NCBI GenBank assembly: GCA_902536575.1
Contig: CACAYA010000006.1
Coordinates: 1 to 54,426 of the forward strand
Direction: 5' to 3'
Length of the DNA stretch: 54,426 nucleotides
From: an uncultured Pelagibacteraceae bacterium
GTDB lineage: Bacteria > Pseudomonadota > Alphaproteobacteria > Pelagibacterales > Pelagibacteraceae
The first letter of the stretch is position 1. Each line of letters begins with the position of its first letter. Of this stretch, positions 29,344 through 41,651 are shown piece after piece. Under the pieces are notes generated by a model, which was given only the letters and a program-made list of their open reading frames with translations, searched no databases and was not told the DNA's origin. A program made the position numbers and the translations under genes.

Positions 29344-29664
29344 ATGCCAGTCCAAAAAGCTAAATTTTCAATTGGGGACATTGTTAAACATAAACACTTT
29401 GAATTTAGGGGTGTGATTTATGATGTTGATTTTGAATTTAACAATTCAGAGGAATGGTATCAATCGATCCCAAAAAATGTAAGACCAAGAAAAGATCAGC
29501 CATTTTACCACTTACTTGCTGAAAATGATGAAATCACTTATGAAGCATATGTTTCAGAGCAAAACTTGCTTATGGACGACTCTGATGAGCCAATAAAACA
29601 CCCTTTAATTGAAGAAATTTTTTCAGGAAAAAAGGGTTCAAGCTACTTTAAGCTTTCAAATTAA
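29344..29664 (+). CDS. hspQ: Heat shock protein HspQ
   Basis: 106 residues with the full family pattern: AKFSIGDIVKHKHFEFRGVIYDVDFEF, NVRPRKDQPFYHLLAEN and YEAYVSEQNLLMDDSDEPIKHP. HspQ binds hemimethylated origin DNA and stimulates Lon protease in enterobacteria; this is family knowledge and not shown here. It stands alone on the plus strand, followed by 181 bp with a large inverted repeat. Confidence 0.93.
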   Translation: MPVQKAKFSIGDIVKHKHFEFRGVIYDVDFEFNNSEEWYQSIPKNVRPRKDQPFYHLLAENDEITYEAYVSEQNLLMDDSDEPIKHPLIEEIFSGKKGSSYFKLSN

Positions 29665-29732
29665 GCATATCAATATTCCAACACATTTAGCTCAAATCTA
29701 GGCCATAAATATTCATTATATCTAATTTAGAT

Positions 29733-29797
29733 TCTGATCAAGGATGTAAAACGTTATATTTAGTCTTATTGTCTCCCCCTCGGCATCCTTGATCAGA
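29733..29797. ncRNA. Candidate structured RNA or long-stem hairpin between hspQ and ccmC
   Basis: A 14-bp perfect inverted repeat (core ctgatcaaggatg / catccttgatcag) closes a 37-base loop. The loop ends in the C-rich tctccccctcgg, which stands out in this AT-rich genome. On the plus strand the stem is followed by a weak U-rich run (ctttttc). It sits in the longest intergenic gap of the window. It may be the terminator of hspQ, a leader element of the ccm operon, or a small RNA with an exposed anti-Shine-Dalgarno-like loop. The repeat is certain; the role is not. No tRNA, SRP or tmRNA signature fits. Confidence 0.5.
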
Positions 29798-29845
29798 TAA
29801 CTTTTTCATAATAGAAATTCCACAATTAATTATTAAATAATAGTT

Positions 29846-30553
29846 ATGTTTAAGATCTTTGAACCAAATAAAATTTTTCAAATAACTTCTAAAGCTCCAA
29901 AGTATATTTTATTTTTATTTGTTATTGTTTTAACAGTTGGTTTGACAGAGGCATTAATTTTGTCTCCAGAGGATTATAAACAAAGCGACGCAGTAAGAAT
30001 TATGTATGTTCATGTTCCATCAGCATGGATCTCACTTGGAATTTTTTCGTCGATTACTTTTTTATCGATAAGTGGTTTTATTTTTAAGAATAAAAATTTT
30101 TTCTTAATAGCAAAAAGTTTAGCACCATCTGGATTTGTTTTTAATATTATTGCTTTAGTTACAGGTGCGATTTGGGGCAAACCTACATGGGGAACTTGGT
30201 GGGCATGGGACGCTCGGATTACATCAATGTTAATTTTAGCATTATTTTTTGCTATGTATTTAATAGCTTGGAGAATTTATGAGAAAGAAGAAAAAGTTTT
30301 TAAGATTACTACCTTTATAACTATTGTCGGTATTATAAATGTTCCAATTACTAAATACTCTGTTGATTGGTGGAATACACTTCACCAGCCAGCATCAATT
30401 AATATTTTAACAAAAAGCTCAATACATTCTTCAATGCTTTTCCCGTTATTATTAATGACTGCGGCATTTGCTCTATTTTCGTTGTTAATTTTCTTAATGA
30501 AATATAATACAGAACTGATAAAAATTAAAAATAAAGGTTTAGATAGATTATGA
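29846..30553 (+). CDS. ccmC: Haem exporter protein CcmC
   Basis: 235 residues with six hydrophobic helices. The WWD motif that presents haem, WGTWWAWDARITS, lies near residues 115-127, flanked by the conserved histidines in YVHVPSAW and in NTLHQPASI. CcmC loads haem onto CcmE in System I cytochrome c maturation. First gene of ccmCDEFGH here; ccmA and ccmB are not in the window. Confidence 0.96.
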   Translation: MFKIFEPNKIFQITSKAPKYILFLFVIVLTVGLTEALILSPEDYKQSDAVRIMYVHVPSAWISLGIFSSITFLSISGFIFKNKNFFLIAKSLAPSGFVFNIIALVTGAIWGKPTWGTWWAWDARITSMLILALFFAMYLIAWRIYEKEEKVFKITTFITIVGIINVPITKYSVDWWNTLHQPASINILTKSSIHSSMLFPLLLMTAAFALFSLLIFLMKYNTELIKIKNKGLDRL

Positions 30554-40452: not shown

Positions 40453-40564
40453 CAATCTGCAGTTGTATTGATTAAATATATTATTAATTAAAATTATTCT
40501 AAGCTGCTAGACTTATTTTTTAATTCAATCTACAATTTAAAAAAAAAAATTAAAGAGGGATATA

Positions 40565-41626: not shown

Positions 41627-41651
41627 TTAACAACAAAAAGAGGGGAAAAAC

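Follow-up and report, generated by a model that had tools for sequence, protein, structure and literature searches.

A hairpin located 3' of hspQ in this Pelagibacteraceae contig is almost certainly a real RNA under selection, and we propose that it encodes a SAR11-family small RNA that has not been described before, with an estimated length of roughly 60–65 nt. Because its fixed C-rich loop is complementary to ribosome-binding sites elsewhere in the genome, most closely to that of the light-driven pump proteorhodopsin, the small RNA probably switches translation of several genes; judged from sequence comparison, it is likely to act in trans, with an anti-Shine-Dalgarno loop that blocks those sites. 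SAR11 bacteria are among the most abundant in the ocean, have few transcription factors, and are thought to lean on post-transcriptional control. A family-wide RNA with a fixed anti-Shine-Dalgarno loop, in organisms in which Hfq was not found, constitutes a defined molecule for study.

Structure and conservation of the hairpin

The first-pass annotation of the window (the whole stretch of 54,426 nucleotides analyzed) had described a perfect 14-bp stem with a 37-nt loop at 29733–29797, and this description is exact; the loop, which it called C-rich, ends in TCTCCCCCTCGG (Table 1). The predicted fold has a free energy of −21.7 kcal/mol (z = −5.1 on the + strand), with none of 200 shuffles equally stable, and the hairpin is the sole perfect inverted repeat in the window with arms of at least 14 bp and a spacer of at most 60. 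Six Markov-1 copies of the window contained one such repeat in total, and none with at least 6 G+C per arm. The covariance model CM R1 matches the window at 29733–29798, with 58.9 bits on the + strand and 33.3 bits on the − strand. Rfam 15 gave no family match in the window at the gathering score and nothing relevant at relaxed thresholds, and in three other loci it gave chance-level matches only, elsewhere in those loci. Conservation is far stronger support for the hairpin than these single-genome statistics.

Table 1. Features of the hairpin locus and candidate target sites within the window
Feature	Position	Strand	Basis or remark
hspQ	29344..29664	+	constant upstream neighbor
Conserved upstream box AACACATTTAGCTCAAATCTAGGCCATAAA, taken as promoter region	29680..29709	+	alignment
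−35-like TAGGCC at end of upstream box	29699–29704	+	TTGACA-like in relatives
Weak −10-like element CTAATT (putative), 17-bp spacing	29722..29727	+	sequence; inferred
RNA hairpin, whole	29733..29797	+	repeat and fold; CM R1 match
5' arm of stem, TCTGATCAAGGATG	29733..29746	+	sequence; compensatory changes in relatives
37-nt loop	29747..29783	+	sequence; loop comparison
C-rich anti-Shine-Dalgarno core, UCUCCCCCUC in window	29772..29781	+	loop comparison
3' arm of stem, CATCCTTGATCAGA	29784..29797	+	sequence; compensatory changes in relatives
ccmC	29846..30553	+	downstream neighbor in most genera, replaced in g10, g12, g14
Candidate target AGAGGGA, before Zn-alcohol dehydrogenase gene (ATG 40565)	40554..40560	+	same operon as ABC gene
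Candidate target GAGGGG, ribosome-binding site of ABC sugar-binding-protein gene (ATG 41652)	41640..41645	+	

The initial proposal was made to depend on conservation of the stem in related genomes, and compensatory stem changes around a conserved loop were to be sought; the stem is conserved and both features were found. All 26 same-genus ccmC loci, cut out with their flanks and including the locus of the window, carry the hairpin at the same place. In the genus stem alignment (24 rows, 15 pairs, 345 cells), 99.1% of the cells are paired and compensatory changes on both sides occur in 9 of the 15 pairs. Covariation is 0.400 versus 0.252 ± 0.015 in shuffles, with 0 of 500 shuffles matching the covariation, the number of pair types or the percentage paired, and pairing falls to 34–44% in a control in which the partner is slid by 1–3 columns. 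Among the 397 genomes of the order, CM R1 has matches in 252; almost all of these belong to one genus, usually with a single + strand place each. The relatives that carry names are Candidatus Pelagibacter / Pelagibacteraceae. Many of the genomes lacking a match are drafts, yet some are well-completed, and in these the RNA may be missing or may have diverged. A match in G311 and weak matches in other genomes were discarded because their positions look coding. The genus-level sequence of the 3' half had no exact counterpart in viral contigs.

Conservation extends beyond the genus. Two weak model matches (G415 and G407) show the same loop inside stems of quite different sequence, and a cross-genus search anchored on hspQ, with genera labelled by codes (g1, g5 ... 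g18), placed the hairpin in 46 loci from 14 genera of one SAR11 family. The hairpin lies about 60–80 nt 3' of hspQ in the same-genus and the cross-genus loci, with a range of 62–83 nt in the cross-genus set. Stems range from 10 to 19 bp and vary in sequence between genera with pairing kept, as in the arms GCCTAATTGGGGATT/AATTCTCAATTAGGC, TTGTCCAGTTCGGAG/CTTCGAGCTGGACAA and TACCTAACTGAG/CTCAGTTAGGTA, and each of the 46 loci beats its shuffles (0/100 as good). Loops measure 19–37 nt in most relatives and 50 nt in one. In the loci read from family f2 (L162–L165 and L170), no such hairpin is present at hspQ and another gene lies directly 3' of it. One locus (L114, from G423) shows a tandem duplication of the hairpin 3' half after hspQ, with a second CAUCUCCCUC copy.

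The RNA is assigned to the + strand, since 44 cells of the genus alignment are G-U or U-G pairs on this strand that become A-C mismatches when read on the other. Model scores in the genomes are mostly 57–81 bits on the + strand and 20–34 bits on the − strand. The minus-strand loop sequence GAGGGGGAGA noted previously is present, but the ribosome-binding-like role suggested for it, and with it the minus-strand reading, is rejected on account of the G-U asymmetry.

Loop motif and relation to known RNAs

In sequence, the fixed loop core (A/U)CUCCCU(C) is close to the anti-Shine-Dalgarno tail (AUUACCUCCUUUCU) found in SAR11 16S rRNA; the tail reads GGAUUACCUCCUUUCU, to which the loop sequence AUUAUCUCCCUCU is similar. 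Among 36 distinct loops family-wide, CUCCCU is found in 35 and CUCCCUC in 31, with one full CUCCCU(C) motif per RNA and often a second short C-rich run. The sequence thus has what is looked for in a trans-acting anti-Shine-Dalgarno RNA: a conserved C-rich motif that is unpaired and complementary to ribosome-binding sites. A search for Hfq (PF17209) that was positive in controls (E. coli, Caulobacter and others) gave no match in any of 21 Pelagibacterales genomes.

Together, the conserved loop, the compensatory stem, the + strand assignment and the candidate targets argue for the idea preferred at the outset, a small RNA whose anti-Shine-Dalgarno loop is exposed. Transcription would start near the stem base from the RNA's own promoter, and the single long hairpin would expose the C-rich loop in single-stranded form. 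The loop is predicted to pair in trans with GAGGG-type ribosome-binding sites, and these would thereby be hidden and their translation lowered without Hfq. In several genera the proteorhodopsin mRNA stands out as the leading candidate target, with substrate-binding-protein and alcohol-dehydrogenase operons as weaker candidates.

The 'cuckoo' RNAs related to NfeR1 carry CCUCCUCCC loops, and the SAR11 RNA is, like NfeR1 and the cuckoo RNAs, alphaproteobacterial with an anti-Shine-Dalgarno motif borne in a loop. NfeR1 (alpha-r14) of Sinorhizobium meliloti is an anti-Shine-Dalgarno small RNA with substrate-binding-protein mRNAs as validated targets and, in contrast to AbcR1/2, has no described partnership with Hfq (PMC8844928). 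However, NfeR1 is 115 nt long with three identical motifs, whereas the SAR11 RNA consists of one hairpin of ~65 nt in which CUCCCUC occurs in full once, so that it lacks the several identical anti-Shine-Dalgarno motifs of the alpha-r14/NfeR1/cuckoo group; no sequence relation was found in Rfam. The anti-Shine-Dalgarno seeds of AbcR1/AbcR2 (alpha-r15) block ribosome-binding sites, many of them in ABC-transporter targets (PMC8844928), and the SAR11 RNA shares with them a motif suited to such sites. AbcR1/2 differ in binding Hfq, for which no gene was found in the order sample (21 genomes), and in lying in tandem beside lsrB with two motifs; the SAR11 RNA is single copy beside hspQ, followed by ccmC or another gene. 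The Pelagibacter candidate structured RNAs of Meyer et al. (2009) are likewise SAR11 intergenic elements from comparative genomics; in the main text of that paper no ccm, cytochrome or hspQ context is named, and the motif in its Figure 3A is a bulged hairpin beside rhtB (PMC2704228). The SAR11 literature searched describes riboswitches and candidate motifs, and no trans-acting RNA with named targets.

Transcription unit and alternative readings

A conserved box of ~30–40 nt (family consensus GCCa.aaaTt.AACA...TT..t.CAAA.cT..GaCAaA) precedes the hairpin. With CTAATT as the −10 element, transcription would start at ~29733–29734, near the stem base, although a consensus scan calls no promoter at the box in the window, where the −35/−10 match is poor. 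The box occurs once in the complete relative G012 (43.6 bits, next best 11.7), and a shared regulon site was rejected since that genome is without a second copy; the box is possibly a site for a dedicated activator.

On the 3' side of the hairpin in the window, a terminator scan found no terminator-like site. This result, together with the long loop (19–50 nt) and the lack of a conserved U-run, removes the terminator option of the first-pass annotation, and without an intrinsic terminator transcription may run on into the next gene. The hairpin could accordingly be part of a cis-acting 5' leader controlling the next gene (ccmC in most genera), or be cut from it. We regard this reading as unlikely, even though the next gene has the same orientation in every case, lies close by (about 32–94 nt away in most loci) and has no terminator ahead of it. 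In g10, g12 and g14 the gene 3' of the hairpin is a different one, which from a sequence impression we take to encode a secreted PagL/acyloxyacyl-hydrolase-like protein, and the RNA is of unchanged type. The element therefore follows hspQ and not ccm, and the ccm leader suggested earlier loses its footing, its association with ccmC not being constant. Moreover, a Shine-Dalgarno partner for the loop is not evident ahead of ccmC in the window, and the stretch immediately 5' of the ccmC ATG (29812–29841) holds a promoter-like match, albeit one at chance level. At L034 (G024), ccmC itself is apparently split by a frameshift or duplication, with two overlapping partial matches and internal stops.

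Less probable still is that the loop is a binding site for a protein, for instance of the cold-shock, KH or S1 type, with the RNA as a sponge or scaffold. A loop that varies except for one short, fixed pyrimidine motif would suit such a role, as would the failure to find Hfq in the 21 genomes, and the cold-shock proteins CspE/CspL have been proposed in SAR11 post-transcriptional control (PMC2864753); the motif, however, is a specific complement of ribosome-binding sites and is similar to the 16S tail. We consider it quite improbable that the hairpin belongs to the 3' end of the hspQ mRNA, as an end element or a processed 3' UTR fragment: linkage to hspQ is constant, but terminator features are absent, hspQ and the hairpin are separated by a conserved promoter-like box, and a terminator has no need of a fixed loop. 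A protein-binding DNA palindrome or a chance repeat is hardly conceivable, for despite a TGATCA palindrome inside the stem in one genus, both are contradicted by the compensatory stem replacement and the one-strand G-U pairs.

Candidate targets of the proposed trans-acting RNA

For a small RNA that blocks ribosome-binding sites in trans, proteorhodopsin and nutrient-uptake genes form a concrete target hypothesis. Among Pelagibacter proteorhodopsin leaders (80 loci, 79 readable), 76 of 79 have GAGGGAG as the ribosome-binding site. In an ortholog comparison of 892 pairs between the complete G012 and 71% of G068, GAGGGAG occurs no more than 22 nt ahead of the start in one gene per genome, proteorhodopsin in both, and is an unusual choice given that the common ribosome-binding word there is AAGGAG; with permuted heptamers, one conserved gene is not rare by itself (2/21). 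Proteorhodopsin is also second-best of the 892 pairs for pairing with the loop core, through AGAGGGAG (G012) and GAGAGGGAG (G068) before UUUUUUAUG, and its site pairs at −14.1 kcal/mol with the loop core versus −10.4 kcal/mol with the 16S tail. Conservation of this ribosome-binding site may stem from RNA control or from plain translation, which it cannot separate.

In other genera, sites were judged by comparing set-pattern matches with rhodopsin positions. Among the matches listed, AGGGAG is located at the proteorhodopsin start in g1, g7 (2/3), g9 (3/3), g11 (2/3) and g18, and in g8 for G076 but not G105. Among those same matches it is not at this position in g5, g6, g10, g12, g15 and g17, where the RNA is kept in the genomes read, nor in those genomes of f2 that are listed; the hspQ loci read from f2 also lack the hairpin. 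No rhodopsin was found in some genomes with the RNA. Since the RNA is retained in genomes without the site or without a rhodopsin, it needs other targets if it acts by pairing with ribosome-binding sites. Proteorhodopsin as a target is a reasonable but tentative proposal.

The ~40 nt before the proteorhodopsin ATG form a near-invariant leader, AAAAACUAACUAAAGAGGGAGUUUUUUAUGAAAAAACUU (loci L319–L398), for which two mutually exclusive hairpins sharing AGUUUUUU are predicted, one with the GAGGG ribosome-binding site in its loop and the other spanning the start codon. The two-hairpin leader is possibly a translational switch. The CUCCCUCU loop of the SAR11 family RNA might, without Hfq, kiss the GAGGG loop of the leader hairpin and so control proteorhodopsin translation, a model we put forward with reserve; a co-fold calculation, which has loop-loop pairing outside its model, showed no gain. 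If the model is true, an RNA would control a light-driven pump that ranks among the most abundant in the ocean.

The GAGGGG that the first-pass annotation had singled out before the ABC binding-protein gene is present, and its duplex with the loop is predicted at −19.1 kcal/mol with accessibility left out. In G012, AGAGGGAGATAA before the alcohol dehydrogenase is a 12-nt perfect complement of that genome's own loop. Further GAGGG[A/G] sites lie ahead of genes for an alcohol dehydrogenase, for a XRE-type regulator and for several substrate-binding proteins. Global enrichment of targets over shuffled loops was not significant, either at −9 kcal/mol (19 of 892 pairs vs 14.2 ± 5.8) or at −12 kcal/mol (4 of 892 vs 1.3 ± 1.2). 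When 80 genomes were searched for GAGGGAGAU ahead of an ATG, about half had matches, which were scattered, and no target was universal.

The loop of the window is itself atypical, with UUGUCUCCCCCUC at the place of the relatives' UUAUCUCCCUC; it has two more C (CUCCCCCUC) and is without the C-rich run that most relatives have on the 5' side, which may reflect drift or the tracking of different targets. Three relatives carry variant loops, CUCACUC in L158 (G437), AUAUCCCUC in L096 (G067) and a loop shortened to UUUACCCUC in L097 (G159), and these natural variants are useful tests of target co-variation.
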